Source: Rivularia sp. PCC 7116
Lineage (GTDB): Bacteria > Cyanobacteriota > Cyanobacteriia > Cyanobacteriales > Nostocaceae
Direction of reading: 5' to 3'
Length of the DNA stretch: 64,000 bases
Assembly: GCF_000316665.1 (NCBI RefSeq)
Contig: NC_019678.1
Coordinates: 1,116,001-1,180,000, forward strand
The notes beneath the pieces are model-generated. The model was not told the DNA's origin and made no database searches. It saw only the letters and a list, made by a program, of their open reading frames with translations. The position numbers were made by a program, and so were the translations under genes. Positions 21,641 through 48,379 of the stretch are shown here, piece by piece (position 1 is the first letter of the stretch; each line of letters opens with the position of its first letter).

Positions 21641-21837
21641 TTCAAAGCTTAAGCATTAATTTTTTTAATTACTCCTTGTAGTTATATTGTTAACTCAGTA
21701 TTGTATAAATATCTTGATTTAAGTGTACAGTTCTAATTGTTATAGAGATAACACTTTGGTTCTAATACCTTGACTAAAGATGTGATACTATCATGCAACG
21801 CTAATTACACTAATCTGTTACAGAAAAAGTATTGAAA

Positions 21838-24800
21838 ATGGGTTTTCAAAGTAGATATACACCTCATTTCTCCTTTTATATATTTCTAGCGATCGCTGCT
21901 GCTGTAGTTCTAACCTCTTTCACAATCAATACTGTATTAGAAACGATTATTCTTGCTGTTTTCATAATTGTAATCATTGTATTAACTAAGACAGCGTGGG
22001 AACCTGCACATCGAGGAGGAACTAATGTACGCTTACGTTCTCTTCAAATTGCTAGTGGTGTTGTAGTAGTATCACAACCTTGGTGGAAACCCATTTTAAA
22101 TTTGCTTTCTAAACCTTTTTTAAACAAGCTACCTGCCCCCATAAACTCACCCGAATCTCCATCAATTGCTGTTTTACTCTTCATAGCTTTCGTAATTTTT
22201 ATTGTTAATCATTACACGCAAGATAAAACAGCAATGGGCAAGCATCCAACGCCCATAGAGAAGGAGTTTCCAGAAAAAAGTTACCAAGATAGACTAAAAG
22301 CATTTTGCAACTATTTTGCCGATGACATTAGGAAAATAGACCGAGAAAATAGATGGAATCCAGATGCTTATATTCCTCTTGATGCTGAAGTAGAAGTACA
22401 GTCTGGTACTAAGAGGTTAAGAAAAGTTACCGACTTACTTAATGCAATTCGCTCTGATAAGAAAAGCCGAGTTTTTCTAGTTTTAGGCGATCCAGGTTCT
22501 GGTAAAAGTGTAGCTCTTAGAAAACTATGTCTGGAACTATTTCTTGAAAGTGAAAAAACAGGAAAACTCCCTTTATATATAAATCTTAAAGAGTGGAAAC
22601 CCCAAAGACTTTGGACGGAAGAAAACCCTCCTACAGTAGAAGAATTACAACAGTTTGTATTTGATAACTTAATTGGCAGAGGAGATTACTACACCAATGA
22701 GTTTATGCGAGCCACTTTTGATAAAATGCTATTGCATGGCAGATTTTTTATTATTCTTGATTCATTCGATGAAATCCCTACAGTATTAGACGAGCAAGAA
22801 AATTCTTGGTTGATTGATAAACTTTCAGATATAAGTCATAGATTTCTTTGTGGAGCGACTGAATCTAGGGGGTTACTTGCTTCAAGAGTCTTTAGAAAAC
22901 CGACAAGTAAATTTGATGCAAAAACGACACTTGAAATTCGTCCCTTGACTGAAGAAAAAATTATTAATCTTTTGAAAAAATCACTTTCATATAATGACAT
23001 CTTAGTAAAACGTATCTTTAAGGATAGACAAGAATTTGTACCTATTGCAAGGAATCCTTTTACAGCAACTTTGATTTCAAGCTATGCTCAGGCTCATGAT
23101 AATAGCCTTCCTCAAAACCAAGCAGAGCTTTATGCAAGTTACATCGATCGCAATCTTCAGGCATCGATGGACAAAATAAAAAAAAATGAACTGACAAAGG
23201 AAGAAGTTATTCAGTGTGCGACTGATATCTCAGATGTGATGCTCACTGATAAAAAATTAGGACTTGAAGCATCAATTTCAGAACTAAATGCAAGATTGCC
23301 TAACTATTCAGTAGAGAAGGTAATTGATGTTTTGAAATATGCAAGATTGGGAAGATTAGGTTCAGGAGATGAACAACAGTTCAGTTTTGTTCACAGAAGA
23401 TTCAATGAGTATTTTGTAGTAAAAAGATTGCTTGAGAAACCCCAAAGAGTTCCGAAGGATGCTATTCCAAGTGATTCGCGATGGCGGGATGCCCTTGTTT
23501 TATATTGTGAAGTAGCACAAGAAGATGAAGTAAAACAAATTGCTAACTTTTGTTGGGCAGAAATTAATCAAATAATTAAAGATGGCTTGGATATGAGAGA
23601 TCCTCGATTTCTTCGTATGATTCATTGTTTGCGTTTCATTAAGGAAGCTTTTAGAGCAAGAGTTAGCTGTATAGAAGATTTTCGAGGAGATTTAGCAGTT
23701 TTTATTCATCAAATTCTTGAGAATGACAATCAAAATATTCTCTTGCAGAAAATTGTAGTTGATGCAGTAGGTGTTTTACGAGACGAAGATATTGACACAG
23801 CAATTATTCAAGCAATAAGTATAGGCGATCCTTGGATTAATGAGACAGCTTTAAGATCCTGCCGTCATTTACCAAAAATTAGTCATGACTTGAAGTATGC
23901 AATTATAAATTATATTAATAGTTTTGATCTTCTAAAGCTTTTTCGTAAAAAAGATGACTTATTATTTTCCTTAAGTCTTTCCGATGGTTTTACTGAAGTC
24001 AATAAATTTTTAAGATGGCGAGTCAGAGATATTTATACTTTTACCGTAGGATTTGCTATCTGCTGGGCACTCAATATAATTCTCATGCCTATAATAACAG
24101 CTTGTTTGTACCTAACAATAGTTGGGTTCAAAAATATCTTATCTGAGTTTTCTTCTTTCCGACGCTTTATTTCATCTATTTTTGAACATAGAGATGTTAT
24201 TCCTCATATCATATTTAACAAGCTGTATTCCTTACAACCTCGAATGATATTAGGTATTGCAGCCTTATTTGCTTGGTCATTTATAATTGAAAGCAGCCCT
24301 AATTTATATCCTAATGATGTATGGGGTTATCTCAGAAATTTTTCTTATATTAGCTTACCGCTCTTATTTCCTATTTATTATATTCCTTTCTATCTTATTC
24401 CTTTCATAAAGGAAAATTTGATGCCTTCAATAGAGGAAAGCAGCAAGTTGCTATTTTCATTACATTTTTTAAAAACTATATCGATAGGGCTTTTGAAATT
24501 TTTATTCACACTCTTATTATTTATTTTTAGCGTCTCAATTTTGTTTTTCATCTTATTCTTTATTTTATTATTGCCATTAGCAATTATTAATTATTTATTT
24601 ATCTTGTTTAATAACTTTCTACTTAGCTATTCTCCGGATTTGAGAAACCTGCTAAAATCTTTGTTTTTGATGTTGCCATATCTGTTAACAATTTTATTTG
24701 CAGTAATTATACCTTCATTATTTGGCATATTTATTATTCGTCAATATGTTCATGACTGGCAGAATATAAAAAAGCAAATTAAGATTGTTTCTATAAATAG

Positions 24801-24990
24801 AGAAAATATTGAGAAACAACTTAAAGTCTTCAAAACTAGTTGGGGACGAATGGAGTATGTTAAATTTTTACAGCATGAAAATATTAAACCAATTGGTAAC
24901 TGGTCAACTAGTAATTTACCAAATTACAAAGATCCAGCAAGTAGCTTATTAGCAAGACTTGAAGAGAAGTGGTTAGGTTTAGATAGGTAA
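21838..24990 (+). CDS. Membrane-anchored NACHT-domain P-loop ATPase
   Basis: A 1050-residue STAND-type NTPase. The N-terminus has two hydrophobic helices (about residues 12-50) and another near 110-125. The NACHT core follows with Walker A GDPGSGKS (217-224), Walker B FIILDSFDE (304-312) and a downstream IRPLTEEKI segment typical of NACHT modules. The middle (about 400-700) is helical without clear repeats. The C-terminal third holds about six to eight hydrophobic helices with short charged linkers and ends in a soluble tail. Bacterial NACHT proteins often act in antiphage defence or programmed cell death; here a membrane-acting effector is plausible but inferred. I prefer the ATG at 21838 over a TTG two codons earlier. 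A macro-domain gene lies 467 bp downstream. Confidence 0.85.
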   Translation: MGFQSRYTPHFSFYIFLAIAAAVVLTSFTINTVLETIILAVFIIVIIVLTKTAWEPAHRGGTNVRLRSLQIASGVVVVSQPWWKPILNLLSKPFLNKLPAPINSPESPSIAVLLFIAFVIFIVNHYTQDKTAMGKHPTPIEKEFPEKSYQDRLKAFCNYFADDIRKIDRENRWNPDAYIPLDAEVEVQSGTKRLRKVTDLLNAIRSDKKSRVFLVLGDPGSGKSVALRKLCLELFLESEKTGKLPLYINLKEWKPQRLWTEENPPTVEELQQFVFDNLIGRGDYYTNEFMRATFDKMLLHGRFFIILDSFDEIPTVLDEQENSWLIDKLSDISHRFLCGATESRGLLASRVFRKPTSKFDAKTTLEIRPLTEEKIINLLKKSLSYNDILVKRIFKDRQEFVPIARNPFTATLISSYAQAHDNSLPQNQAELYASYIDRNLQASMDKIKKNELTKEEVIQCATDISDVMLTDKKLGLEASISELNARLPNYSVEKVIDVLKYARLGRLGSGDEQQFSFVHRRFNEYFVVKRLLEKPQRVPKDAIPSDSRWRDALVLYCEVAQEDEVKQIANFCWAEINQIIKDGLDMRDPRFLRMIHCLRFIKEAFRARVSCIEDFRGDLAVFIHQILENDNQNILLQKIVVDAVGVLRDEDIDTAIIQAISIGDPWINETALRSCRHLPKISHDLKYAIINYINSFDLLKLFRKKDDLLFSLSLSDGFTEVNKFLRWRVRDIYTFTVGFAICWALNIILMPIITACLYLTIVGFKNILSEFSSFRRFISSIFEHRDVIPHIIFNKLYSLQPRMILGIAALFAWSFIIESSPNLYPNDVWGYLRNFSYISLPLLFPIYYIPFYLIPFIKENLMPSIEESSKLLFSLHFLKTISIGLLKFLFTLLLFIFSVSILFFILFFILLLPLAIINYLFILFNNFLLSYSPDLRNLLKSLFLMLPYLLTILFAVIIPSLFGIFIIRQYVHDWQNIKKQIKIVSINRENIEKQLKVFKTSWGRMEYVKFLQHENIKPIGNWSTSNLPNYKDPASSLLARLEEKWLGLDR

Positions 24991-25084
24991 GGTTATTAAC
25001 GAAGCTAATAATACCTCAAAATCTTGTAATTGTCTCATGTTTCTTTAATTAACAGGACTTAAACAATTGTCATAATACTTGGGT

Positions 25085-25139
25085 GGTGCGTGACACCATA
25101 AACCGAATTATTATGTTAAAAATCATTGTGTACAGCACC
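25085..25139. repeat. Palindromic repeat family, divergent copy 3
   Basis: Ends GGTGCGTGACACC and TGTACAGCACC match the family only partly. The left end pairs imperfectly with the right, suggesting an old copy. Confidence 0.55.
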
Positions 25140-25246
25140 CTGCAAGAAAATATGCCAGTTGAGTAAGTCCTAATCAAGTCTACATTCATGGAAATTCCTG
25201 AATAAATACCTCAGTCTTATCCATCTGACATCTTGCAGCAATGTCA

Positions 25247-25316
25247 GAAACCCGGTTTCTTTGCGATTTTATAACGAGATAATCGTGCTTTCACGACAAG
25301 AAACCGGGTTTCTTTG
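25247..25316. repeat. Paired AGAAACC-CGG-TTTCT palindromes
   Basis: Two nearly identical 18-bp units (25247-25264 and 25299-25316), each itself palindromic (AGAAACC with GGTTTCT), flank a small CGTGCTTTCACG hairpin. A relative occurs at 18481-18511. It probably forms a cruciform or RNA hairpin; no coding role. Confidence 0.75.
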
Positions 25317-25368
25317 AACTTTTTGAGAATGGTGCAAGATTTGAGATCCATAAGACTTCTGCTATTAT

Positions 25369-25389
25369 CCCAGGGTTTGCAACCCTGGG
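25369..25389. repeat. Perfect 9-bp stem hairpin CCCAGGGTT-TGC-AACCCTGGG
   Basis: A perfect palindrome with a three-base loop, 69 bp upstream of the macro-domain start. There is no U run after it on either strand, so it is a repeat or leader hairpin rather than a simple terminator. Confidence 0.7.
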
Positions 25390-25457
25390 CGGGTAATACT
25401 TGTAACCAAAAACTTAAAAATTTCTACTACAATAGTATTCAAGCGGAGAAATAAAAC

Positions 25458-26054
25458 TTGAGACTAATTCTAGTAGCGCCCGATTCATTATTAACAACAG
25501 CTTTTCAACGACATTTCAATTATTTTCCTAACATCGAAATCGTTAACAACTACTTTGAGTGGTTGCCAACTTTCGATTGTTTAGTTAGCCCTGCGAATTC
25601 TTTTGGGATGATGGATGGTGGTATGGATGCTGCCATTATCAAGTTTTTCGGTGATTCGTTGATGGATAGGGTACAGCAACGCATCCTTGAAGATTATTTA
25701 GGAGAACAACCTGTAGGAACATCAATGATTGTGGAAACGGGTAATTCTAAACATCCTTTTCTCGCACATACACCTACCATGCGAGTTCCCATGTCTATCG
25801 TAGGCACAGATATTCCTTATGTAGCGATGTGGGCTATGCTTTTAGCCGTGCGCCGTCATAATCAATTTTCTCAACATCAAATTAATACTGTAGCTTGCCC
25901 CGGTTTGGGTACCGGAATTGGTAGAGTTGATTATCATGAAGCAGCCAGACAAATGGCTTTAGCTTACGATAATTTTCTTTATCCACCCAAGCATCTTAAT
26001 TGTTTTGTTGCAGCTTCCAGACAGCTTTTGATTTGGGAAGGTGGAAATTATTAG
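25458..26054 (+). CDS. Macro-domain protein
   Basis: A 198-residue protein with the macro-domain pattern for binding or hydrolysing ADP-ribose derivatives. It shows VSPANSFGMMDGGMDAAI (residues about 43-60, the asparagine-glycine substrate loop) and VACPGLGTGIGRVD (residues about 150-163, the phosphate-binding loop). Start: no ATG occurs near the N-terminus, but TTG at 25458 is preceded by GCGGAGA eight bases upstream, which decides for a TTG start. Macro domains remove ADP-ribose from proteins, process ADP-ribose phosphates or sense NAD-derived signals. The subfamily cannot be fixed by eye. The gene lies downstream of the NACHT ATPase on the same strand, separated by repeat DNA, so joint function is only a possibility. 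Confidence 0.85.
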   Translation: MRLILVAPDSLLTTAFQRHFNYFPNIEIVNNYFEWLPTFDCLVSPANSFGMMDGGMDAAIIKFFGDSLMDRVQQRILEDYLGEQPVGTSMIVETGNSKHPFLAHTPTMRVPMSIVGTDIPYVAMWAMLLAVRRHNQFSQHQINTVACPGLGTGIGRVDYHEAARQMALAYDNFLYPPKHLNCFVAASRQLLIWEGGNY

Positions 26055-30429: not shown

Positions 30430-30549
30430 CTGTTGTTAGTTGTTAGTTGTTAGTTGTTGGTGGTTAGTTTATATTTTTTACCTCTTACCAATTACCCATT
30501 ACCCATTACCCATTACCCATTACCAATTACCCATTACCAATTACCAATT
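30430..30549. repeat. GTTAGTT and CCCATTA heptamers ending at the hlyD-like ATG
   Basis: The array consists of TTGTTAG units, then about nine CCCATTA/CCAATTA units. The last unit, CCAATTA, supplies the A of the start codon ATG. No Shine-Dalgarno sequence remains. Confidence 0.9.
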
Positions 30550-32046
30550 ATGAAATATTCTTTAGTTGCCGATGCATCCCAAGCACAAAGGACAAAACAA
30601 GAATTTGCAAAACCCGACGAACAGTTATCTTATGAGTTGGGTAAAGCCGTACAGGAATTACCACCGCTTTATACCAGACTTTTAGCGGGAACTATTAGCG
30701 CTATTGTGTTTGGTTCGATTACTTGGGCGTATTTTTCCAAAATAGATGAGGTGGCTACTGCACCGGGAAAAATTGTTGCTGCGACACAAATTAGACCAGT
30801 TACATCTTTGGGTAATGGTTCAATTTTGAAAGTGGAGGTTAAAGAAGGAGATACAGTTGAAAAAGGGCAAGTATTAATTCAACGCGATCCAGATTTGCAG
30901 CAAGCAGATGTCGTTCGTTTGGCGAAAAGCGCTAATTTAATCCGAGATGATTTACGCCGCTTGGATGCCGAACGTACTGGGGCTAATACAGCAGGGAATG
31001 AATTACAAGATGAGCTTTTGCAGTCTCGCTTAAAAGATTACCAAGCACGTCAAACTGCTGCGGAAGCGGAAGCAAATCGTCAAGCAGCCCTGGTAAAACA
31101 AGCAAAAGTGCGTTTAACTCGCTTGCAAGAAAATCTTGCTAATGCCAAAACTGGTTTAAAAAATGCCATATCAAACAAGAACAATGCCCAGGAGCTTCGC
31201 GATAAAGTTGGCAGCAATGTAGCTTTAGCGAAGAAAAGAGAAGAAGGTTTACGCGGTTTGACTACTCAAGGTGCTGTGCCGCGACTCGATTATTTGGATG
31301 CACAGGATAGACTCAACCGGGCTAATGCTGAAATTACCAGAGCTGCGGATCAAATAATTAACGCAAAAACAAAAGTAACCGAAGCAGAAGACAAAGTTAC
31401 ATCTTTGCAAAAAGACTTAGCCGCACAGCAACAAGAAATCAGCCAAGCACAAGCAGCTTTTGAAGCAGCACAGAGTCAAGCACAGCGCTTAGCTTCAGAA
31501 CGTCAAAGTGAAATTCTCAGTCAAATCAACAAGCGCAAAGAAGAATTAACTAATATTACAGGTCAGTTAGAACAAGCCAAAAAACAGCAACAATTAGAAA
31601 CTATCAAAGCTCCGGTACCTGGGGTAGTGTACGACGTTAAAGCTACTATTGGTCCCGTACAATCAGGGGAACAGTTGCTTTCAATTGTACCCGAAGGAGA
31701 AGAATTGTTATTAGAAGTCAAAGTCCTCAACCGCGACATTGGTTTTATTAATAAAGGAATGCAAGCAAAAGTTAAACTAGCAACTTTTCCTTTCCAAGAA
31801 TTTGGTGCGATTAATGGCGAAGTAGTTAGTGTTAGTCCTAATGCAGTAGTTGATGAAGAATTAGGACTGGTATTTCCCACCACGGTTAAGTTAAATAAAA
31901 ATAGTTTAGTCGTGCGCGGTGAAGAAGTCGGGTTTACACCTGGAATGACTGCTAATGCTGAAATTGTTACCCGTAAAAAATCAATTTTGACATTCTTAGT
32001 TGAGCCAGTAACCCGTCGCTTTAGCGAAGCATTTTCTGTGAGGTAG
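30550..32046 (+). CDS. HlyD-family membrane fusion protein of a type I secretion system
   Basis: A 498-residue periplasmic adaptor. A single transmembrane helix (LLAGTISAIVFGSITWAYF, about residues 40-58) follows a cytosolic N-terminus. Next is the first half of a lipoyl-like domain (GSILKVEVKEGDTVEKGQVL), a coiled coil of over 200 residues rich in Ala, Gln and Lys, the second lipoyl half (TIKAPVPGVVYDVKATIGPV) and a beta-barrel/MPL region ending NAEIVTRKKSIL. HlyD adaptors bridge an inner-membrane ABC transporter and an outer-membrane TolC channel. The likely ABC partner in this window is the split gene 15 kb away, preceded by a parvulin. The start codon merges with the heptamer array. Confidence 0.9.
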   Translation: MKYSLVADASQAQRTKQEFAKPDEQLSYELGKAVQELPPLYTRLLAGTISAIVFGSITWAYFSKIDEVATAPGKIVAATQIRPVTSLGNGSILKVEVKEGDTVEKGQVLIQRDPDLQQADVVRLAKSANLIRDDLRRLDAERTGANTAGNELQDELLQSRLKDYQARQTAAEAEANRQAALVKQAKVRLTRLQENLANAKTGLKNAISNKNNAQELRDKVGSNVALAKKREEGLRGLTTQGAVPRLDYLDAQDRLNRANAEITRAADQIINAKTKVTEAEDKVTSLQKDLAAQQQEISQAQAAFEAAQSQAQRLASERQSEILSQINKRKEELTNITGQLEQAKKQQQLETIKAPVPGVVYDVKATIGPVQSGEQLLSIVPEGEELLLEVKVLNRDIGFINKGMQAKVKLATFPFQEFGAINGEVVSVSPNAVVDEELGLVFPTTVKLNKNSLVVRGEEVGFTPGMTANAEIVTRKKSILTFLVEPVTRRFSEAFSVR

Positions 32047-34629: not shown

Positions 34630-36156
34630 CTATCTCTCAAGCCTTAACAGAACTTCATCCTCTTCAAGCATACTTTCAATATCGTCGCTAAATAATCGAT
34701 TATTAGGATTTTTCCAAGCATTTTGTTGATAATTGATGAACTGCGATTCAGAATACGGTTTTGCAGACTTATCAATGCTCATTGAGGAATCAAAAACCAT
34801 AGTCTTACCAGAATCAAAACTTCTACTAAAACTTGGCATTATAGGATTACTATCAAAATCAAAGTTAAACTCAGAATCACCGCTTGGAATCAAATCAGGA
34901 AAATAATCGGTTAAATCCGGTAGTATAGGTTGATTACTCGCCTCATTTTTCGATGTTTCTTCAAGAGTCTGCCGTATCAGATTACTATCAAAACTGGGAT
35001 TCGCACTTAACATTAAAGCAACAACTCCTGCAACATGTGGAGTTGCCATAGAAGTACCGCTATAGGATTCATATTTATTGTCTGGAAGAGTAGAGTAAAT
35101 ATCGACTCCCGGAGCAGTAACGTATGTTAACTCTTCAGAACCTGCTTGATTAGAAAATGAAGCCATGTTTTTATCTTCATCTATAGCTCCTACGGCAATT
35201 CCATATTCATCTGCATAGCGAGCCGGATAGAGGGGCATATCACCGCCGCTATTTCCAGCAGCCATGACTACGGTTACACCTTGCTCGCTGGCGTATTGTA
35301 TAGCTTCTGAGACACCAAAACTAGGAAAAGAACCACCAAGTGAAAGATTAATTACATCCGCTCCATTATCTACAGCGTAATAAATACCATCAGCAACCGC
35401 AGTATTAGATCCAGAACCGAAATCATCCAAAACTTTTACCGGCATTATTTGAGCATCATAAGCAATACCGGTTACACCAAAACCATTCTTTTCACCAGCA
35501 ATAGTTCCAGAAACATGAGTACCATGTCCATCAACATCGATAGTACTGTTGTTATCTCCATCAAAATTCCAGCCATAGAAATCATCTATATAGCCATTAC
35601 CATCATCATCCTTACCGTTATTTTCAATCTCGCCGCTATTAGTCCAAATATTATTTTTTAAATCGTCGTGAGTGTAATCCACGCCAGTATCTAGTACTGC
35701 AACAACTACACCTTCACCCGTATATCCTTGCTCCCATACTTCTGGTGCATTAACTGCATCAGCCCCCCAATTCTTACCTCCTTTATCGGGAACATCATCA
35801 AAAGTATCTTCTCCAATAACTCTTGCTACTGCTTCTGATGCATCTACTAAACCATAGCCAGTTTCAGAGCTATATTCATCGCTATCTAAAGCAGAAAAAT
35901 TTGCAGTTTGATTAGTACCAGTTTGATTGGAACTGTAACTGTCAGCACTTAATTGATTTGTGCTACCTACATCCTGTAAATCGGAGTTATTTTGATTGAG
36001 TATTGCAGAATCATTATGAGAATATTCAATACTACTACGAGCTAAAAAGTTTAGACTATTGGATGTTAAATCATCACTTAACTCATTTGTCGGGGTAATA
36101 TAATTAATGTTAGCTGATTCAGAAAATAAATCGCTATTACTAAAATTAACTTGCAT
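34630..36156 (-). CDS. Subtilisin-like serine peptidase (family S8)
   Basis: A 508-residue peptidase. The catalytic triad is Asp156 (VAVLDTGVD), His211 (VDGHGTHVSGT) and Ser369 (SGTSMATPHVAG); Asn302 in AAGNSGG is the oxyanion residue. A calcium-loop-like DDDGNGYIDD lies between the first two. The N-terminal 110 residues are Ser/Asn-rich and disordered-looking. There is no Sec signal, and the C-terminal 110 residues are acidic and Ser-rich. That layout fits a type I secretion substrate or a leaderless export route. It is the first of three large leftward peptidase genes between the HlyD-like and HlyB-like genes. Family assignment is certain; route and substrates are inferred. Confidence 0.93.
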   Translation of the reverse strand: MQVNFSNSDLFSESANINYITPTNELSDDLTSNSLNFLARSSIEYSHNDSAILNQNNSDLQDVGSTNQLSADSYSSNQTGTNQTANFSALDSDEYSSETGYGLVDASEAVARVIGEDTFDDVPDKGGKNWGADAVNAPEVWEQGYTGEGVVVAVLDTGVDYTHDDLKNNIWTNSGEIENNGKDDDGNGYIDDFYGWNFDGDNNSTIDVDGHGTHVSGTIAGEKNGFGVTGIAYDAQIMPVKVLDDFGSGSNTAVADGIYYAVDNGADVINLSLGGSFPSFGVSEAIQYASEQGVTVVMAAGNSGGDMPLYPARYADEYGIAVGAIDEDKNMASFSNQAGSEELTYVTAPGVDIYSTLPDNKYESYSGTSMATPHVAGVVALMLSANPSFDSNLIRQTLEETSKNEASNQPILPDLTDYFPDLIPSGDSEFNFDFDSNPIMPSFSRSFDSGKTMVFDSSMSIDKSAKPYSESQFINYQQNAWKNPNNRLFSDDIESMLEEDEVLLRLER

Positions 36157-36535: not shown

Positions 36536-39500
36536 CTAAGTAGAAACTACATTACTAATCGTAGAATCCCAATAGCTAAAGTTACTGGTAATTTCACTCC
36601 AGCTTAACTCTAAAGTTCTGGACTTTACGGCATTGTTGTCAGTACTCCAAGGATTCAATAAAGTGAATTTTTGAGTTTCAGCATTATAGTCAACTAAAGC
36701 ATAGGCATGAGAAGTAACAATATTTGATGCCACACCACCAGATTTTGAACCAAATCCTACTACTTCACCAGATTGGAAAGCATTAACCACTTTATCAAAG
36801 CTGAGAAATCTTCCTAAAGCAGCTTTCTCTCCAGTAATATGCTTGAAAGCATCACTCAAATATCCAGCATTACCAATACCGTTATAAGAATTGGTACCAT
36901 CTTGATTAATCCATTCAGCTTCGTTGAGTTGAGCGTAAGCTTTTTCTGCAAGTGTTACCCAAAGTTCATTGTTAGCATTTCCATGATAATCTCCGGCATT
37001 AGCATACACAAAATTACCTATATTATTCGTTGGTAAATATCTGTCTACAGTTACATAATCAGCAACTCCATTTTTATAGAAACGAACTGTAAAAGTTCCA
37101 TCTCCATTATCAATAAACATATTTTGGATAATTTCCGGTGACTGTACCAAAGTTGCACCCAAACCAGCTAAGAAGAAACAATTGTTGATATAACCTTGTC
37201 TAATATCATCATGACTGATTCCATTTTGGAACAGAGAACCTTGGGCATATTGATAAGTATGAGCAGTCTGGGGACGCTCGCTGCCTCTAAACCACTTATT
37301 AATTAACTTATCTAACTGCTCGCTGCTACTTCCTGCTTGTAAGTTACCGGATTTATTTGCAGTATCACCGTTCACAACCTTATTTGCTAAAACCCTGACA
37401 TAGTCATCGATTCCTAGATAAGAAGCATTGCTAAGAATGGTACGAAAATCTTTGATTTCGGTTGCATCAACAATATTATTATCCTTAGCATCTTCAAGGA
37501 TAGCAATCATATCGTTACGGTTTAGAGTCTTATCTGAAAATAATGTTCTAGTCTTATTACGTATTTCTGTATCAATAATATTTCTTTCAAACCAATCTTT
37601 CTCAGGTTGCGGGGGTACGACACCAGTAATTTGGAAAGATTTTTCTAGTTCGATATACTCATTTGCTTTATCGTTGATTCTGGCAAGTAACTTGTAATTA
37701 CCATTTTGGAGAGAATCGAGATTGTAATCAAAACTGAATGAACCATCGGCATTCTTACGGAATTGAGATATATCTGCGACTTCTTGCTTAACTCCGTTGT
37801 CTTTTTGCAACCAGAGTTTAACCTTATCAATATCGTCTATACCATTCGCATCAAACACCCTTACATTAGTTAGTTCGATTCTTCCTCCTGTGGTTTGAAT
37901 ATCAAAATCAAGTTGGCTGGGAGCTACATTCTTGATTGAAAAAGACTTTTGCTCGACATTTCCGTAACTATCTGATTTATCGCGGCTTCTAGCCCATAAT
38001 ACGTAATCACCAGATTCCAAAGAATCCAAATTGTAATTAAAGCTAAAGGAACCATCAGCATTCTCGCTGAAATCTACAGCATCTTCGATATCTTGCCAAC
38101 CTTCATCGTCTTTCTTTAACCAAAAGTCAACTCTAGTGATATCGGCAATACCGTTTGCGTCATACACTTGAGTATCTACAAGACGAATACCACCATCGAT
38201 AGTCTCAATATCAAATAGCAAGTCTGTTGGTGCAGCATTCTTGACTTTGAAATAGGTGGTTAAAGTTTCGCTATTCTCTCCAGCTTTATCGATAGCTGTG
38301 GCTTTAAGTTGATAATTACCTTGTTCTAAATTATTGATACTGTAACCAAAACCAATCGAGCCATCGTTATTTTGACTGAATTCAACAACGTCTTCAATAT
38401 CAATCCATTCACCGCCCTCTTTCTGAAGCTGGAAATCAACTTTTTCGAGGTCATTTATACCATCTGCATCAAATACCCTGGCATTTCTTAACTCAATTCC
38501 TCCACTTATTTCTCTGAAGTTAAAATCGAGTTGAGAGGGTGCCGCATTACCGATATTAAAAGTTGCTTGCTTACTATTACTGTATTTATCTTCTCCATCA
38601 CGAGCTCTTGCCCATAAGGTGTAATTACCTTTTTCCAGGGAATCAATGCTGTAATCAAAACCGATTGAGCCATATTCATCTTGATTACTACGGAATTCAA
38701 CAGCATCCTCAATATTCTGCCAATTACCACTCTCTTTTTTCAGCCAAAAATCAACTCTGCTCAGGTCATTTATACCGTTAGCATCAAATACTTTAGTATC
38801 AGTAAGACGAATCCCATTTTCAACAACTTCAACTTCAAATGCTAAATCGGAAGGAGCAAGATTATCAATCCGGAAAAAACTCCTTAAAGATTCGCTGCTC
38901 TCACCAGCTTTATCGTAAGCAGTAGCTTTAAGCTCGTAATTACCTGCTTCTAAACTAGAAATACCGTAATCAAATCCGAATAAATTACCATCTACTTGCT
39001 TAAAATCAGTAGCGTCAGCAATCTCAATCCATTCACCGCCCTGTTTTTTGAGTTGAAAAGCAACTCTTTCTAAATCATCTATACCATTTGCATCATATAC
39101 CCGTGCATCATTAAGCTTAATTCCTCCATTACTACTTTCTATAGTAAAATCGAGCCTTGAAGGTGCTACATTCTCAACTTTTGGATCGACAAAATTTGTA
39201 ACCTCAAATATTTGTCCCCAACCATTGCTTCTATATCCAAAATTATCGGTAGCTCTACCCCATAGATAGTATTTTCCTTCTTCAAGATTGTCGATATTGT
39301 AGTCAAAACCGATTGAACCGTCGTCACTATTGTGATTAAATTCGGTTACTATACCGGCTTTTCCCCATCTTTCACCTTCTTTCTTCAGCCAAAAATCAAC
39401 TTTTCTGATATCACCAGCACCATCGGCATCAAAAATCTTGGTATCTGTAAGGCTAATATCCCCTTGAACCGTTTCTACTTTAAATTGAAATTGTTCGGGT

Positions 39501-39853
39501 ATATGGTTACTTCTATATTCTAAACCGTAGGAAATTTCAGCATCATCAACTTGATGCACTTCAATAAAATACGTACCCGCATCTAAAACCCTTGCTATAC
39601 TTTCGTTCCTAGTACCACTAAGGGATGAACTCGCAACTTGAGAACCATCATTGCTCAATAAGCTAACATCTGCATTATCCGACAAATCATTTAATACAAC
39701 TTCAAAATAACTGCGACTACTTAACTGAACGCTGTAGTAATTGTCAGTATTATTTAAATTTACTTTACCTTCGATAGTTGTCCATTCTTGAGTCGTATGT
39801 AAATAAGTTGAAGAATCGGGAAAGTTAACCCCATTACCTATATCTATCGGCAT
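36536..39853 (-). CDS. Calpain-family (C2) cysteine peptidase with PPC domain and six tandem repeats
   Basis: A 1105-residue protein. Residues about 15-110 are a PPC (bacterial pre-peptidase C-terminal) beta-domain (DNYYSVQLSSRSYFEV; GTYFIEVHQVDD). Then come six Ig-like repeats of about 105 residues, each with DANG(I)xD and VDFWLKK or FQLKK strands; repeats 1, 3, 5 and 2, 4 are alike, so the array grew by two-repeat duplications. The C-terminal 220 residues are a calpain-like protease with Cys892 (YINNCFFLAGL), His1049 (TSHAYALVDYN) and Asn1067 (LLNPWS). The triad is complete. No Sec signal is present. The ATG at 39853 is preferred over an upstream ATG that adds 20 hydrophobic residues of promoter-like sequence. 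Likely exported. Confidence 0.9.
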   Translation of the reverse strand: MPIDIGNGVNFPDSSTYLHTTQEWTTIEGKVNLNNTDNYYSVQLSSRSYFEVVLNDLSDNADVSLLSNDGSQVASSSLSGTRNESIARVLDAGTYFIEVHQVDDAEISYGLEYRSNHIPEQFQFKVETVQGDISLTDTKIFDADGAGDIRKVDFWLKKEGERWGKAGIVTEFNHNSDDGSIGFDYNIDNLEEGKYYLWGRATDNFGYRSNGWGQIFEVTNFVDPKVENVAPSRLDFTIESSNGGIKLNDARVYDANGIDDLERVAFQLKKQGGEWIEIADATDFKQVDGNLFGFDYGISSLEAGNYELKATAYDKAGESSESLRSFFRIDNLAPSDLAFEVEVVENGIRLTDTKVFDANGINDLSRVDFWLKKESGNWQNIEDAVEFRSNQDEYGSIGFDYSIDSLEKGNYTLWARARDGEDKYSNSKQATFNIGNAAPSQLDFNFREISGGIELRNARVFDADGINDLEKVDFQLQKEGGEWIDIEDVVEFSQNNDGSIGFGYSINNLEQGNYQLKATAIDKAGENSETLTTYFKVKNAAPTDLLFDIETIDGGIRLVDTQVYDANGIADITRVDFWLKKDDEGWQDIEDAVDFSENADGSFSFNYNLDSLESGDYVLWARSRDKSDSYGNVEQKSFSIKNVAPSQLDFDIQTTGGRIELTNVRVFDANGIDDIDKVKLWLQKDNGVKQEVADISQFRKNADGSFSFDYNLDSLQNGNYKLLARINDKANEYIELEKSFQITGVVPPQPEKDWFERNIIDTEIRNKTRTLFSDKTLNRNDMIAILEDAKDNNIVDATEIKDFRTILSNASYLGIDDYVRVLANKVVNGDTANKSGNLQAGSSSEQLDKLINKWFRGSERPQTAHTYQYAQGSLFQNGISHDDIRQGYINNCFFLAGLGATLVQSPEIIQNMFIDNGDGTFTVRFYKNGVADYVTVDRYLPTNNIGNFVYANAGDYHGNANNELWVTLAEKAYAQLNEAEWINQDGTNSYNGIGNAGYLSDAFKHITGEKAALGRFLSFDKVVNAFQSGEVVGFGSKSGGVASNIVTSHAYALVDYNAETQKFTLLNPWSTDNNAVKSRTLELSWSEITSNFSYWDSTISNVVST

Positions 39854-40518: not shown

Positions 40519-40672
40519 GACTTACGCAACCAAAATAAGTCATTGCGACGGTTACTACGTGTAGGGAAGCATTCACCGGCGAGTGTGGATTATTGGATTA
40601 CGTCGCTGTCGCATGTCCTAACGGACACGCTGCGCTAACGCAATCACGCAATCATGTTATTTTGCGTAAGTC
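40519..40672. mobile_element. MITE-like element with GACTTACGCA ends
   Basis: A 154-bp non-coding element with inverted ends GACTTACGCA and TGCGTAAGTC, extended by AAAATAA/TTATTTT. The interior contains GTCCTAACGGACAC and GCGCTAACGC palindromes. A fragment with the same TTGCGTAAGTC end lies near 55391-55402. No transposase is encoded. Confidence 0.65.
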
Positions 40673-40697
40673 CTGTATATTTTTTCCTAGAATACTA

Positions 40698-40852
40698 AGA
40701 GGATGTTTAGGAAGTCATAAATAAAACTCGTAAATCTTAAGATCCCCCTAAATCCCCCTTTTTTAAGGGGGAGCCGTTACCCCACTTTTTAAGGGGGGAA
40801 GGGGGGATAATCCGAAAGTTGGGCTAAAAACTATACTTTCCAAACATCCTCT
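40698..40852. mobile_element. MITE-like element with AGAGGATGTTT ends
   Basis: A 155-bp non-coding element. The 18-bp terminal inverted repeats (AGAGGATGTTTAGGAAGT at 40698-40715 and its near-complement at 40835-40852) differ at two positions. TAA-like flanks on both sides could be a short target duplication. Inside is a CCCCCTTTTTTAAGGGGG hairpin. It needs a transposase in trans. Confidence 0.75.
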
Positions 40853-41066: not shown

Positions 41067-43220
41067 CTATGCAAAACCCCGTGCAATAGCTAAAGCCCTT
41101 CGCACTGCTGCATCCGCATTAATAAAACCGTGTCCGTAAACTTCGTCATAGCCCTGATTGCCTAAATCATAAGCAGTTTCGGAAATGATAGCTTTAACCT
41201 GCCCCGCACTTAAATTAGAATTCGCACTCCATACCAATGAAGCAACTCCAGAAACATTTGCTGTCGAAGCCGAAGTTCCATTAAATTTATCGTTGTATGC
41301 AAAATCGAAACTACCCGTACCGTTGCGATTGGCACTAGTAGTAAAAAACTCAGATGGTGCAGTTACAGTTAAACCATTACCGTAATTAGAACCCCACCAA
41401 TTATCATAAGCAACCCTTTCACCAGGATTTCTAGAATTACCATACCAATCTTGAGTTCCCCAGGAAGAACCCACAGCTACCACATTACCGTACCTCGCCG
41501 CCAAATCTGCGGGACTGGCAATACTATTACTATTACCATTCCCAGAAGCAATTACGAATAAAGCTGTATTTTGGTTAGCTGCAATTAGTTGTTCAAATTC
41601 TACCGAGTAACCGCCAGCCAAACTAATATTGACTACCAAACGCTTACCTTGAGCATTGGCTTTATCTATCATCGCTTGTGTTGCAGTGGCTAAATTATAA
41701 TCAAGCGGATTGTCGCCAACTACATCGACGAGCATTAAGTCAGAGTTCCAATTAATTCCAGCTCCTCCCATACCGTTATTGCTTCTAGCAGCAATACCTC
41801 CTTGTACTAAAGTTCCGTGGGAAAAATTACCCCACTCATCAACATAGTTGCTACCAATAAAACTAGCTGGGCGTAAATCGGGATGAATATTGCCACTACT
41901 ATCAGTACCACTACCGGTATCTTGGATGCCAATCATGACGTTAGACGTACCAGTAGTAAAACGCCATGCATTATGAACTCCCATCCCGTGTAAATTCCAC
42001 TGCTGGCTAAATTGAGGATCGTTAGTTGTTACCGATAAGTTGATAGTAGTGTCGGCAAATCTGATCGCATCAATACTTTCAAATAGAATTTGGCTGCCAT
42101 CACTAAGCGTTAATGCATCAAATATGCGGTTGCCATTGCCGGAGTTATAAACAACTCCTCCATTCGGATTGGTTGCATAATTAAAGGCTGCCGAAGTCGA
42201 AACGAATTGGGATAAATCAATTAAATCCCGCCCTCCGCTGCCAAAATCAACATTACCGTTACCCGAAAAAATTGTCCGACTGTAACCAGACTCGAATGTG
42301 AAAGTATCAGCCCTTAAAGTTCCAGCTTGGCTGCGGGTACTACCAGCGCTTTGAGGTACAGCAGAAGTAGGAATCGGGGATGATTGATTTGCTGAAGTTG
42401 CAGCTGTATTACCAACGGAAGTCGGAATTAACTCCATCTCCCCAGAATTAGAACTGTTTTGGCTTGGTAAAGAAGCCGATAACTTGAGATTGTAGAAAGT
42501 TTCGCTGCTGTTGTAGGAATAAACCTTTAGATAGTAAGTACCTGTTTCTAAAGTTTGATTAATCGACTCGCTAGCAGCGCCGCCGTTAATTGAGTTAGCA
42601 AGAATATTTCCTTGGCTCGACAGCAACTGCAAGTCAGCATCAGCACTTAAACCGGCAACTACAACTTTAAAATCACTGCTATTACTCAGGTTGAACCTAT
42701 AGTAATCCTGGGAATCTAGCTTTCCTACCCAATCGCTAACAATTTTCGTTTGGGAATCAACGCTTATTTCACGAGCATTATTGAGAGTATTTCCCGCACT
42801 GTCAAACGGTACCGCCGAAACAGTTAAATGATAGTTAGTTTCTATATTGCCGTAAGGATAAACTTCGATATAGTAATCACCCGCAGCTAAACTGGTGTTG
42901 ATTGATTCGGCTAATGTACCTCCATTGTTGGAATAAGCAATCGTTTCGTCTTTATCGAATTTTCCATTTGCATTTTTATCCCTAATCAGCCTTACGTCTG
43001 CATCCGCAATTAAGCCATCAAGACTAAGGTTAAAACTGCTACGACCTTGGATAGTGAAACTGTACAAGTCGTTGGTTTTAATACTATTTAATGTATCAGT
43101 ATATATTTGTTTGCTAGTATTAATACTTAATTGATTAGCTGAATGCAGTAACCCTCTCGTACCACTTTCTGTCATATCTTTCACATCCAAAAGAACAGTG
43201 TGTATTAACTTAATATCCAC
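41067..43220 (-). CDS. PPC-domain subtilisin-like serine peptidase (family S8)
   Basis: A 717-residue peptidase. Two PPC beta-domains come first (about residues 48-135 and 160-250), then a Ser/Thr-rich linker. A repeat region (about 300-395) follows, with GDGSQ-like strands such as LTLSDGSQILFESIDAIRF, resembling calcium-binding beta-rolls. The S8 catalytic domain has Asp434 (IGIQDTGSGTD), His468 (FSHGTLVQGG), Asn561 (ASGNGNS) and Ser650 (FNGTSASTANVSG). The PPC domains are N-terminal here, the reverse of the usual order. The GTG start at 43220 is supported by AAGGAG five bases before it. There is no Sec signal, so type I export is plausible. Its large promoter region is shared with the divergent DUF92 gene. 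Confidence 0.9.
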   Translation of the reverse strand: MDIKLIHTVLLDVKDMTESGTRGLLHSANQLSINTSKQIYTDTLNSIKTNDLYSFTIQGRSSFNLSLDGLIADADVRLIRDKNANGKFDKDETIAYSNNGGTLAESINTSLAAGDYYIEVYPYGNIETNYHLTVSAVPFDSAGNTLNNAREISVDSQTKIVSDWVGKLDSQDYYRFNLSNSSDFKVVVAGLSADADLQLLSSQGNILANSINGGAASESINQTLETGTYYLKVYSYNSSETFYNLKLSASLPSQNSSNSGEMELIPTSVGNTAATSANQSSPIPTSAVPQSAGSTRSQAGTLRADTFTFESGYSRTIFSGNGNVDFGSGGRDLIDLSQFVSTSAAFNYATNPNGGVVYNSGNGNRIFDALTLSDGSQILFESIDAIRFADTTINLSVTTNDPQFSQQWNLHGMGVHNAWRFTTGTSNVMIGIQDTGSGTDSSGNIHPDLRPASFIGSNYVDEWGNFSHGTLVQGGIAARSNNGMGGAGINWNSDLMLVDVVGDNPLDYNLATATQAMIDKANAQGKRLVVNISLAGGYSVEFEQLIAANQNTALFVIASGNGNSNSIASPADLAARYGNVVAVGSSWGTQDWYGNSRNPGERVAYDNWWGSNYGNGLTVTAPSEFFTTSANRNGTGSFDFAYNDKFNGTSASTANVSGVASLVWSANSNLSAGQVKAIISETAYDLGNQGYDEVYGHGFINADAAVRRALAIARGFA

Positions 43221-44758: not shown

Positions 44759-44962
44759 ATAAAAGTGTTTTCTGAAATAAATTGTTAAAAATCAGTAACC
44801 TATAAGTATTTGTACGCGGCATGTTATCGGTTTTTGTTGCGGCATTACTGCAATATAAATTTGTATTAAAGTAGCATTAAGCTTATCGAGTGTCAGTTGA
44901 ATGCGATTGCTTTTAATTTTGCTACTTTATATTTTTTAAGGTATTTTCTAAGTATTAACAAT

Positions 44963-45721
44963 ATGGAATCTTCATCGTTTTTAACTGTTAACGACCGGCT
45001 AATTTCAGTAAAGCAGGCAGTACAGTATTTACAAGTTAGTGGAAAATTAGGTCAGTTTATTAGAGATATTCTACGTCAGGATGTGATCGAGCAAGAAATT
45101 CAAGCCAGAGAAGAAATTGAGCTTTCTCCAGCTTTAACCGAACAAGCAATTATTGATTTTCGGCTGAAAAATCAACTTAGCGACCAGCAAAAGTTTCAGG
45201 ATTGGTTAAATAATAGCGGTACCGATTATGCAACGTTTCACTCTACAGTGGCTTTCGGGTTTAAATTAGAGAAACTAAAAACTTTAGTGGCAGAGCCGAA
45301 ATTAGCAGAATATTTTATTGAAAGAAAGATTTTTTTGGATAGGGTGGTACTTTCTCGGATTATTGTTGATAATCGAGAGTTAGCTGAGGAGTTACACACC
45401 CAAATTGAAGAAGGTACTAGTTTTGAGCAGCTTGCTAGGGAATATTCCTTAGCAGACGACAAGATTGTTAACGGCATGATGGGACCTGTGAGTCGCGGAA
45501 CAATGCCGGATAAGCTTCGCGCTGCTGTAGATGTAGCTAGTACTGGGGATATTTTAGGGCCTGTAGAACTAGAGCAACGTTATGGATTGTTTCGCGTGGA
45601 ACAGCTCCTACCAGCATCGTTGGAAGATACTCAACTTAAGCAAGCACTACAAAATGAACTGTTTGAGAAATGGCTAGCCGAGAAAATTCAAAAGCTGACA
45701 GTCAAACTGCAAGTAAAATAA
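44963..45721 (+). CDS. Parvulin-type peptidylprolyl isomerase, cytosolic form associated with secretion ABC genes
   Basis: A 252-residue protein without a signal peptide. Residues about 20-110 are a SurA-like helical segment (LGQFIRDILRQDVIEQEI). Residues about 125-225 are a PpiC/parvulin domain: VVLSRIIVDNRELAEEL, FEQLAREYSLADD, GGMGPVSRG-like NGMMGPVSRG and LGPVELEQRYGLFRVE. The ATG at 44963 follows the usual MESSSFLTV start; a TTG farther upstream would add unrelated residues. The stop overlaps the next gene by 52 bp, so both are translated from one mRNA. Parvulins next to peptidase-like ABC exporters are a common arrangement in cyanobacteria and probably help fold or stabilise the exported substrate. 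Confidence 0.88.
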   Translation: MESSSFLTVNDRLISVKQAVQYLQVSGKLGQFIRDILRQDVIEQEIQAREEIELSPALTEQAIIDFRLKNQLSDQQKFQDWLNNSGTDYATFHSTVAFGFKLEKLKTLVAEPKLAEYFIERKIFLDRVVLSRIIVDNRELAEELHTQIEEGTSFEQLAREYSLADDKIVNGMMGPVSRGTMPDKLRAAVDVASTGDILGPVELEQRYGLFRVEQLLPASLEDTQLKQALQNELFEKWLAEKIQKLTVKLQVK

Positions 45722-46440
45722 ACGTTTCAAATAATCAATATCAAGCAACTGTTTTGGCTTCTCCAGCTTGGAACCAACCACCTTTATGCTGGCTGAGTGA
45801 CGAACAAAAAACCCTATTGCAAAATCAATCGGATATTCTTGATTTTCGTTTGGGAGAGAAAATTTGGTCTCAAGAAGCTGTTGGTTATCAATTTCTCATC
45901 GTTTCGGGCAAAGTCCGCCTCCGCGAAGAAGGCATTGGTAAACCAATAGCCGCCTTAAAAACAGGAGAATGGTTTGGCAGTTTAAATAATTATCCCACAG
46001 AATGTAAAGCTGTAGCAGCTAGTAAAGAAGTTTTAGTGCTGCGTAGCAATACAGATTTATGGGCAGAATTCTCAACCCCGCAGATCGAAGAATTTTGGAG
46101 CGGGGGAGAGGCAAGTAAACAAGGAGAGGACACTTCTGTGGGGGAGTTCCCCCAGTTGAGGAAAGTGCCCGTAGAAAAGGAGACGAGGAGACAAAAAGAA
46201 AATGTAGAAATATCTTCCCCCTCTCCCCCCCTCTCCCCCCTCTCCCCCTCCTCCCACCTCCACCTACCCTTTCGTCTCCAGCGCCAACAGTGCGGCTGCT
46301 TGCTTGACAATGGTGGCGCAGTATTTAGAAATTTCGGTGAAGTTGGAATGGGTACAGCGCCAAGTGCGATCGCAACGTCCGAAAAATGTTGTGGAAGCTG
46401 CCGAGAAACTTGGTTTGGTGCTGCGGAGGCTGCAAGTTGA
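45670..46440 (+). pseudogene. Type I secretion ABC exporter, N-terminal part (cyclic-nucleotide-binding-like domain), frameshifted
   Basis: Residues about 35-135 of this frame form a cyclic-nucleotide-binding-like domain (FRLGEKIWSQEAVGYQFLI, VSGKVRLREE, LKTGEWFG). A Glu/Lys-rich linker follows. In related cyanobacterial exporters this domain is fused to a C39-like domain, membrane helices and an ATPase; here those lie in another frame (next entry). The frames switch between about 46208 and 46270, within a C-rich tract, so the last 60 or so codons of this frame are out-of-frame read-through. It overlaps the parvulin gene by 52 bp. Labelled pseudogene because it is incomplete alone; it may instead be a phase-variable gene or a sequencing error. 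Confidence 0.75.
46215..46258. repeat. Homopolymeric C-rich tract at the ABC-exporter frameshift
   Basis: C5-TCT-C7-TCT-C6-TCT-C5 followed by TCCTCCC. It resembles the intergenic pyrimidine satellites at 889-945 (complement) and 6750-6830 but lies inside a coding linker. One lost or gained base here would join the two frames. Confidence 0.85.
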
Positions 46441-48379
46441 TTGGGATGATTTGCAGCAACTTTCTTTTCCGGCTTTATTGTTGTGGGGAAACTCAGAGAC
46501 TGCTAATTGGGTAGTGGCTTATGGGCTTAAAGGTAATAACTTGATTATTGCTAACCCCCAAAATCCAGATTGTAATTGCGAGACTGTATCGGGTGAAGCA
46601 ATTGAAACATTTTGGGATGGCTATTTATGGCAAGTAGAACAAACACAACAGCAGGAAAAGTTTAATTTAAGCTGGTTTTTACCGGCAGTTTGGCGATACA
46701 AAGGTTTACTTACAGAAGTACTGCTGGCATCCTTCACCTTACAACTGCTGGGATTAACCACACCGTTGATTACTCAAGTCATCATCGATAAAGTCATGGT
46801 GCAAGAGAGTTTGGCGACTCTCGACGTAATGGCGATCGCCATGCTGTTGGTAGCGGTGTTTGAGTCGGTGTTGGGGATTCTGCGTTTGTTTATTTTCACC
46901 CATACAGCCCGCCGTTTGGATTTAAGTTTGTCGGCTCAATTATTCCGTCACTTAATGCGCTTACCCTTATCTTATTTTGAGTCGCGACGGGTAGGAGATA
47001 CCGTGGCAAGGGTGCAAGAATTAGAACAAATTCGTCAGTTTCTTACAGGTACGGCATTAACTGTAGTTCTCGACAGCATATTTGCTGTAGTTTACCTGGT
47101 ACTAATGTTTTACTACAGCAGTACCCTAACCTTCGTAGCGCTGGCAGTACTGCCATTATTTGCCGGATTAACCCTGAGTGCAACACCAATTTTACGTAAA
47201 TGGCTCAACGAAACCTTTAATAGAAGTGCTGACAGTCAATCATTTCTTGTAGAAACGGTAACGGGAATTCATTCGGTAAAAGCCCATGCAGCCGAACCTG
47301 CAACCAGGGATAGATGGGAAGGTTTGTTTGCTCGCTTTGTCCGTACTGGCTTCAAAGCTTCCACAACTTCCAATATCAGCAGTAACATCGGCGACTTTCT
47401 TACCAAACTATCCAGCCTATTGATACTTTGGTTTGGAGCCAAACTAGTTATTGAAAATAACTTTACCGTCGGGCAATTGGTCGCTTTTCAAATGCTATCC
47501 GGAAGAGTTACCGGGCCACTATTAAGATTAGTTCAACTGTGGCAAAATTTACAGCAAGTACTGTTATCGGTAGATAGAATCGGCGACATTCTCAACGTTT
47601 CCCCAGAAGCAGAGCCGGGAACCGGATTAGTATTACCACCCCTCGAAGGAGAAGTTAAATTCGATCAAGTATTCTTTCGTTACAAAGAAAATACCGAACC
47701 AGTTCTCAAAGGGATTTCCTTCAAAGTAGAACCAGGTCAATTTATTGGTATAGTAGGGCGCAGCGGTTCCGGTAAAAGTACGCTTTCCAAACTTTTGCAA
47801 AGACTTTATCAAATCGAATCCGGACGAATTTTAATAGATGGATTCGACGTAAAAAGCGTTGACTTAGCTTCCTTAAGGCAGCAAATAGGCGTAGTTTTGC
47901 AAGAAGACTTTTTGTTTAACGGCAGCATCCTAGAAAATATCACATTAGGAAACCCCGAAATCTCTGCCGAAGAAGTAGTACAAGCCGCCAGAATGGCAGT
48001 AGCCGACGACTTTATCAGCGAACTACCCAAAGGCTACGAAAGTAACGTTGGTGAAAGAGGTACCGCATTATCCGGAGGGCAAAGACAAAGGGTTGCTTTA
48101 GCTAGATTATTTCTTTTGCAAGCACCAATATTAGTATTAGACGAAGCAACCAGCGCCTTAGACAGCGAAACCGAACAACAGGTATTGCAAAACTTGAAAA
48201 ATACCACGCAAGGAAAAACGGTATTTTTAATTGCACACCGTTTCGCACCATTAAAACGAGCCGACATGATTTTAGTAATGGAAAAAGGAATCATCGTTGA
48301 AAGAGGAACCCATGACGACTTATTGCAGCAAAAAGGATTGTATTATTCCCTTTATCAAAAGCAGCAAATGAACGTTTAA
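46304..48379 (+). CDS. Type I secretion ABC exporter, C-terminal part (C39-like domain, membrane domain, ATPase)
   Basis: 691 residues from a TTG; the frame is open from 46208. Just upstream it reads PFVSSANSAAACLTMV, where C39 peptidases have DCGxACL: the catalytic Cys is Ser. The His and Asp positions are also changed (ANWVVAYG, IIANPQNPD). It is therefore a degenerate C39-like domain, as in HlyB. Membrane helices follow (about residues 130-400), then Walker A GRSGSGKST (485-493), LSGGQRQR and Walker B ILVLDEATSALD. Such exporters move unfolded proteins with C-terminal signals to an HlyD/TolC channel. The HlyD-like gene at 30550 is the nearest partner. Fused to the upstream frame the protein would be about 900 residues. 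Confidence 0.85.
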   Translation: MTMVAQYLEISVKLEWVQRQVRSQRPKNVVEAAEKLGLVLRRLQVDWDDLQQLSFPALLLWGNSETANWVVAYGLKGNNLIIANPQNPDCNCETVSGEAIETFWDGYLWQVEQTQQQEKFNLSWFLPAVWRYKGLLTEVLLASFTLQLLGLTTPLITQVIIDKVMVQESLATLDVMAIAMLLVAVFESVLGILRLFIFTHTARRLDLSLSAQLFRHLMRLPLSYFESRRVGDTVARVQELEQIRQFLTGTALTVVLDSIFAVVYLVLMFYYSSTLTFVALAVLPLFAGLTLSATPILRKWLNETFNRSADSQSFLVETVTGIHSVKAHAAEPATRDRWEGLFARFVRTGFKASTTSNISSNIGDFLTKLSSLLILWFGAKLVIENNFTVGQLVAFQMLSGRVTGPLLRLVQLWQNLQQVLLSVDRIGDILNVSPEAEPGTGLVLPPLEGEVKFDQVFFRYKENTEPVLKGISFKVEPGQFIGIVGRSGSGKSTLSKLLQRLYQIESGRILIDGFDVKSVDLASLRQQIGVVLQEDFLFNGSILENITLGNPEISAEEVVQAARMAVADDFISELPKGYESNVGERGTALSGGQRQRVALARLFLLQAPILVLDEATSALDSETEQQVLQNLKNTTQGKTVFLIAHRFAPLKRADMILVMEKGIIVERGTHDDLLQQKGLYYSLYQKQQMNV

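Follow-up and report, generated by a model that had tools for sequence, protein, structure and literature searches.

A calpain-type protease with a row of FN3/Ig-like beads, encoded among type I secretion genes of Rivularia sp. PCC 7116 and probably exported

The window, a stretch of 64,000 nucleotides of Rivularia sp. PCC 7116 (NC_019678.1, positions 1,116,001 to 1,180,000), encodes a 1105-amino acid (aa) calpain-type protein in which a PPC domain, six FN3/Ig-like repeats and a pre-catalytic domain precede the catalytic domain CysPc (Table 1). It is probably an extracellular cysteine protease carried on a bead stalk, and the type I secretion system (T1SS) encoded next to it probably exports it along with two subtilases. 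Synthesized in the cytosol and lacking a Sec signal, the calpain would leave the cell unfolded, like the two subtilases, through the flanking system, consisting of HlyB with a dead C39-like domain (CLD), PpiC, HlyD and a TolC-type channel encoded elsewhere. Folding would take place outside the cell, aided by abundant calcium, and the PPC domain and the bead row would serve as a stalk holding the C-terminal CysPc away from the cell or sheath. The Gln-Cys-His-Asn machinery would then cleave extracellular or sheath proteins, possibly with a mutual activation cascade between the calpain and its neighbouring subtilases.

The open reading frame (ORF) of the calpain starts with an ATG at 39853, stops at 36536 and is open throughout. 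Its CysPc domain scored 76.6 bits against a curated cut-off of 23.8 for PF00648 (peptidase family C2) and is the single PF00648 match in the 8.7 Mb cyanobacterial host genome. The first-pass annotation, made from the letters of the window, had called the Cys-His-Asn triad intact, and in an alignment of 31 CysPc domains (that of the window and 30 of the 72 listed domain hits) the triad was in place in every sequence. A profile built from these 31 domains matched the human m-calpain 1kfu with an E value of 4.6e-20, Gln, Cys, His and Asn occupying the same alignment columns there. Gly878, Asp883 and Glu970 correspond to the Gly, Asp and Glu of calcium site 1 of calpains; by eye, the region after the NPW motif does not align with the eukaryotic loop of calcium site 2. 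The AlphaFold2 (AF2) model of the catalytic domain, built from only two sequences, reached a predicted local distance difference test score (pLDDT) of 33. Judged from its sequence, the window protein is a predicted calpain-type cysteine protease that may be active and calcium-dependent.

The fusion of this protease to a PPC domain and six repeats, as read in the first-pass annotation, was recovered with Pfam and by the repeat lengths of 100–106 aa (about 104), albeit the PPC match passed the PF04151 cut-off only marginally. The statement that bacterial calpains are uncommon was fair but should not be taken as rare, PF00648 being matched in 77 of the 217 genomes of the host's family and in 59 of 388 genomes of the class. 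The nearest named match, with 88% identity over residues 1–1101, was to a contig from the metagenome assembly of a Rivularia sp. The domains of classical calpains, calpain III (C2-like) and penta-EF-hand, had no Pfam match in the window protein. The PPC-calpain fusion of cyanobacteria is already described in two papers (PMC4631099, PMC9380684), and the architecture class is not new; the six-bead member, the series of stalk lengths within the genus, the linkage to a secretion locus and the pre-catalytic domain were not found described in the literature searched.

The secretion genes around the calpain, which the first-pass annotation did not notice, matter most for its function. Subtilase S8a lies downstream and S8b upstream of the calpain on the same strand, with HlyD on one flank and DUF92-PpiC-HlyB on the other, both on the opposite strand. 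The whole set HlyD–S8a–calpain–S8b–DUF92–PpiC–HlyB recurs throughout the genus and in G193, which belongs to another genus; its order is retained in the genus and, for the most part, in G001 and G193. Since PpiC and HlyD nearly always have one match per family genome, the proximity of the calpain to them could be judged: it lies within 10 kb of one or the other in at least 28 of the 77 calpain-bearing family genomes, belonging to 10 of 26 genera, with about 0.6 expected at random placement. This count was taken from the family-wide tables and not from chosen loci, and 28 is a lower bound to which G077 adds one. None of six random windows contained these secretion genes. Outside the family, T1SS genes adjoin the calpain in six genomes, two of them (G217 of family f2 and G240 of f25) among four genomes examined (G217, G218, G220, G240) and the other four (G578 of f2, G300 of f44, G260 of f48 and G372 of f50) among 34 class-level regions. 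The proximity to secretion genes recurs in this way in five other families.

On a tree built from 70 calpain domains, linkage to T1SS genes required 10 changes and the adjacency of S8a nine; the linkage thus does not go back to a single inherited event, although counts of this kind are inflated by losses and by contig ends. Two pieces of the broken G029 calpain, counted among the 72 domain hits, were omitted from this tree, and locus L106 gave no calpain ORF by profile. S8a, the most constant neighbour, was located within 3 kb of the calpain in 29 of the 70 loci and in 18 of 59 after exclusion of L123–L133, which had been picked for T1SS proximity (L111, L112 and L116 were also known to be near when picked); the sequences of loci L067 and L069 stop close to the gene, and a missing S8a carries little weight there.

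A survey from 2022 (PMC9380684) stated that the function of bacterial calpains is unknown and assigned them to the cytosol on the grounds that they have neither a signal peptide nor a transmembrane helix. If so, the T1SS genes of the window would be chance or housekeeping neighbours, which also agrees with the lack of a T1SS gene near most calpain loci. We consider such a location unlikely, given the frequency of the calpain next to single-copy secretion genes, the occurrence of this linkage in six families, the fusions with RTX repeats and the cysteine depletion described below, and the combination of PPC with FN3-like beads, which is typical of exported proteins. The secretion-gene linkage, the single cysteine and the absence of a visible Sec signal together argue against the cytosolic proposal.

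In its composition the calpain resembles a secreted substrate. It has a pI of 4.4 and only the catalytic cysteine in its 1105 residues, for which the 29 window ORFs of at least 250 aa, raw ORFs and not genes, gave a loose comparison; exactly one cysteine was found in 50 of the 70 calpain ORFs. By eye, no hydrophobic N-terminus was visible in the calpains of the genus members, and no Sec signal in the calpain or S8a. Acidic, cysteine-poor composition is named as a feature of T1SS cargo in PMC11424642, the main text of which does not contain the word calpain. The C39-like domain of HlyB of relatives has Ser or Thr at the cysteine position in all 13 proteins, of 20, in which the motif could be read, and such a domain without the cysteine is that of exporters of uncleaved cargo according to PMC8277102. 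In G220, G253, G272 and G288, representing three further families, the calpain domain is fused to RTX nonapeptides in one polypeptide. The loci of RTX-calpains, L081 (G220), L192, L193 and L199, had 6, 6, 6 and 8 pattern matches, respectively. The literature searches made turned up no published link of a cyanobacterial calpain to RTX or to type I secretion, the two mentions in PMC3034196 concerning host calpain.

Several observations weigh against export through the flanking system. Cargo of CLD-type T1SS is usually recognizable by RTX repeats, and the window protein has no RTX nonapeptides by eye; its 88%-identical counterpart in G190 had fewer than two matches to the pattern. Among the matches listed, 49 of the 77 family genomes have no linked secretion gene, nor have most of the 34 class loci, and where the linkage exists it is clustered by genus, so that the number of independent events is below 28. 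The unlinked calpains are equally cysteine-poor and acidic and the composition does not single out the linked ones; this may fit export of the whole family or another cause. The main text of a study of the Anabaena exoproteome (PMC4390845) mentions neither Alr0369 nor calpain. Finally, HlyB is broken in the window itself into two overlapping frames, 45670–46440 and 46304–48379, with a C-rich low-complexity stretch near 46240–46280, and is a single ORF of 853–938 aa in relatives; the split may reflect an assembly error, slippage or a real break.

The calpain might also be exported by another route, the T1SS of the locus serving mainly S8a with the calpain present as the partner of S8a. The Nostoc-type loci L134 and L135, which lack the calpain, retain DUF92, PpiC, HlyB, S8a and HlyD, and S8a adjoins the calpain without a nearby T1SS gene in six loci (G070, G071 and G172–G175). 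In G217, G240, G300 and G578, however, the calpain adjoins T1SS genes although S8a has no match in the vicinity, and the absence of a Sec signal visible by eye in both proteins speaks against the route as well, which makes it distinctly unlikely. Export of the calpain by the adjacent T1SS is still preferred.

The beads of the presumed stalk were examined by modeling. The AF2 model of R3-R4, based on a 10-row alignment, had a pLDDT of 92 and was almost all beta; its best PDB matches were FN3 tandems (Foldseek E value 8e-8; Z 12.9), with the beads of SiiE at rank 10 among the Foldseek matches. The repeat pair is, according to this model, an FN3/Ig-like beta-sandwich tandem, and the Ig-like label given at first was right at the level of the fold, FN3-like being more exact. 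SiiE is a type-I secreted protein. The tandem beta-sandwich beads of this giant adhesin (2yn3) and of the FN3 tandems 1qg3 and 2vkx resemble the window repeats in structure, but without clear sequence similarity (9–19% identity in structural alignments) and with modest TM scores of 0.33–0.54, perhaps resulting from the hinge angle; moreover, SiiE has no enzyme domain. A design of stalk plus enzyme with variable stalk length could also belong to a contact-dependent or predatory effector, the beads serving to bring the protease to other cells. This is very improbable: no immunity gene, toxin-delivery domain or binding domain was recognised in the window annotation, and congeners differing in bead number keep the same neighbours. 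Under the favored reading, the beads would hold a secreted protease away from its own cell or sheath.

Alternating likeness of the repeats, and growth of the array by duplication of a two-repeat block, had been proposed at first sight. Protein identity was 56% for R2-R4, 58% for R3-R5 and 49.5% for R1-R3 compared with 36–51% for neighbouring repeats, the means at lag 2 and lag 1 being 52 and 46% (32 of the 720 orderings of six repeats were equal or better). In column bootstraps, R2 was the closest repeat to R4 in 93% of protein and 100% of codon replicates, and R3 the closest to R5 in 82 and 87%, respectively. The pairing at distance two stood for R2/R4 and R3/R5, while R1 and R6 fitted less well. 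R1 was closest to R3 in just 80% (protein) or 50% (codons) of bootstraps and less identical to R5 (42%) than to R4 (45.5%); the nearest repeat to R6 was R5 at the protein level and R4 at the codon level, and in the tree R6 sat on a long branch beside the odd group without support. R1 gave no support to a strictly (odd)(even) history of the whole array, and R6 was rejected as a clean even repeat, since in sliding windows its N-terminal half was nearer to R2/R4 and its C-terminal half to R5/R3.

The repeat profile was run on 21 proteins, and the resulting tree included 48 repeats. Within the genus six repeats were present in the window protein and G190, five in G185, four in G191 and three in G186–G189; outside the genus there were seven in G194, two in G077, one in six other proteins and none in five. 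The stalk length is evolutionarily labile, ranging from one to seven beads, with none in some proteins. The R1 repeats of all eight congeners formed a single clade (100/100), R2, R4 and repeat 2 of the three-repeat congeners another one (92/92), and R5 grouped with repeat 3 of the three-repeat congeners (86/72). The order R2-R3-R4-R5 with R2 similar to R4 and R3 to R5 is impossible by single tandem copies alone, which implies that a two-repeat block was copied. This tree supports a two-repeat block as the difference between the three- and five-repeat forms, with single-repeat changes occurring as well. The proposed block growth held for R2–R5 but did not explain all six repeats: R1 is a clade of its own, R6 occurs in two species, G191 carries R1, R2, R4 and R5 with R3 alone missing, and G077 has a single-repeat copy, 90% alike. 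Block gain and double block loss gave p values of 0.22 and 0.20 in the approximately unbiased (AU) test. Against a simple gain from three to five repeats, the tree favored a grouping of R4 and R5 with the three-repeat species, which would imply losses, but the AU test was not decisive.

The seven repeats of G194, a member of a second genus, formed a separate clade (98/97) in which repeats 3/5/7 were 80–91% and repeats 4/6 85% alike, with 72–80% between neighbours among repeats 3–7. In its locus L071 (contig C54, 7851–11834) the 1327-aa calpain has seven repeats alternating independently of the window's genus. Relatives of the FN3-like repeats were also seen in very long frames of 2027 aa (L058, G236), 2021 aa (L059, G224) and 3672 aa (L060, G225). 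Block-wise growth of domain repeats, several domains at once, is generally known (PMC1553488, where repeats are found mainly in eukaryotes), whereas here block and single steps occur within one bacterial genus. With 3, 4, 5 and 6 beads, the genus represents a natural series for the study of stalk growth.

The pre-catalytic domain is a conserved unit with invariant Trp, Asp, Arg and Glu, and a profile search against the PDB gave no match better than chance. It is probably helical, a weak hint that comes only from the helices of the model with pLDDT 33. The domain was found in 16 of 31 relatives' genomes, once in each and within the calpain gene, and in 52 of the 388 class genomes, 50 of which also have PF00648; nine of the 59 PF00648-bearing class genomes do not have it. 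It occurs without a PF00648 match in G301 (1018-aa frame) and G516 (65-aa frame). A calcium-binding EF-hand pair in residues 753–850 was considered from acidic loops that look EF-like by eye but is doubtful, with nothing above a Pfam cut-off, chance-level PDB hits and loops too close together for such a pair. The domain may be a propeptide, a folding aid or a regulatory lobe.

Compared with known systems, the window protein shares the N-terminal PPC domain, the C-terminal CysPc with Cys-His-Asn and, as judged by eye, the lack of a visible signal peptide with Alr0369 of Nostoc PCC 7120 (PMC4631099) and the 13 calpains of PMC9380684, but has six FN3/Ig-like repeats between the two domains; neither a pre-catalytic domain nor secretion-gene linkage is reported in the accessible text of these papers. 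The same survey lists S8 peptidases among the predicted calpain partners in three species, which agrees with S8a as the neighbour observed here. The Gloeobacter RTX-calpain Glr4140 (described in PMC4631099) likewise joins a C-terminal enzyme to type I secretion features, with RTX repeats in the place where the window protein has PPC and FN3-like repeats. The likeness to human calpain-2 is limited to the CysPc core, where Cys, His, Asn and the acidic residues of calcium site 1 align; calpain III, penta-EF-hand and the small subunit are missing.

Two further observations concern the rest of the window. The intergenic region 40540–40830 upstream of the calpain contains, by eye, inverted C/G-rich and palindrome-rich sequence like that often seen in cyanobacterial interspersed repeats. 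At 21832–26054 a NACHT ATPase of 1052 aa, ending in an NCH3 domain, precedes a gene with a Macro domain; the two may act as a pair in defence or signalling.

Table 1. Position of the calpain, its domains and residues, and the neighbouring genes in the window
Feature	Position	Strand	Description
Calpain-type protein	36536..39853	-	1105 aa: PPC, six FN3/Ig-like repeats, pre-catalytic domain, CysPc
PPC domain	39554..39742	-	Residues 38-100; PF04151, 26.8 bits vs cut-off 25.9
Repeat R1	39182..39499	-	Residues 119-224; forms a clade of its own in the genus
Repeat R2	38861..39169	-	Residues 229-331; even type
Repeat R3	38549..38860	-	Residues 332-435; odd type; in R3-R4 fold model
Repeat R4	38237..38548	-	Residues 436-539; even type; in R3-R4 fold model
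Repeat R5	37925..38236	-	Residues 540-643; odd type
Repeat R6	37625..37924	-	Residues 644-743; only in Rivularia sp. PCC 7116 and its nearest relative
Pre-catalytic domain	37304..37597	-	Residues about 753-850, about 97 residues; precedes CysPc; no Pfam match above cut-off
CysPc (calpain catalytic) domain	36590..37297	-	Residues 853-1088; PF00648 (Peptidase_C2), E 2.2e-21
Asp883	37205..37207	-	Nearly invariant; aligned with Asp of calpain calcium site 1
Gln886 (oxyanion Gln)	37196..37198	-	Invariant in 31/31
Catalytic Cys892	37178..37180	-	Invariant in 31/31; sole Cys of the protein
Glu970	36944..36946	-	Invariant in 31/31; aligned with Glu of calpain calcium site 1
Catalytic His1049	36707..36709	-	Invariant in 31/31
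Catalytic Asn1067 (NPW motif)	36653..36655	-	Invariant in 31/31
HlyD-type adaptor of type I secretion	30454..32046	+	TIGR01843 above cut-off; matched in 210/217 family genomes
S8 subtilase S8a	34630..36156	-	508 aa, no Cys, pI 4.05; PF00082; most constant calpain neighbour
S8 subtilase S8b	41067..43220	-	717 aa, no Cys, pI 4.57; two PPC domains
PpiC-type prolyl isomerase	44897..45721	+	Matched in 214/217 family genomes
HlyB-type exporter ATPase	45670..48379	+	TIGR01846 above cut-off; C39-like domain without catalytic Cys in relatives; broken into two frames in the window

Discussion of the calpain core usually treats it as an intracellular calcium sensor. Because single-copy secretion genes lie near the calpain in several families, a function and location of bacterial calpains can now be put to the test. 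Tentatively, many cyanobacterial calpains might be extracellular and exported by an ancestral T1SS within a linked set of cysteine and serine proteases, with the clade-specific pre-catalytic domain acting as a folding or activation switch, and the calcium dependence of the core might predate intracellular calcium signalling and be separate from it. An extracellular, ancestor-like form in calcium-rich surroundings, if true, would recast the role of calcium for the calpain fold.

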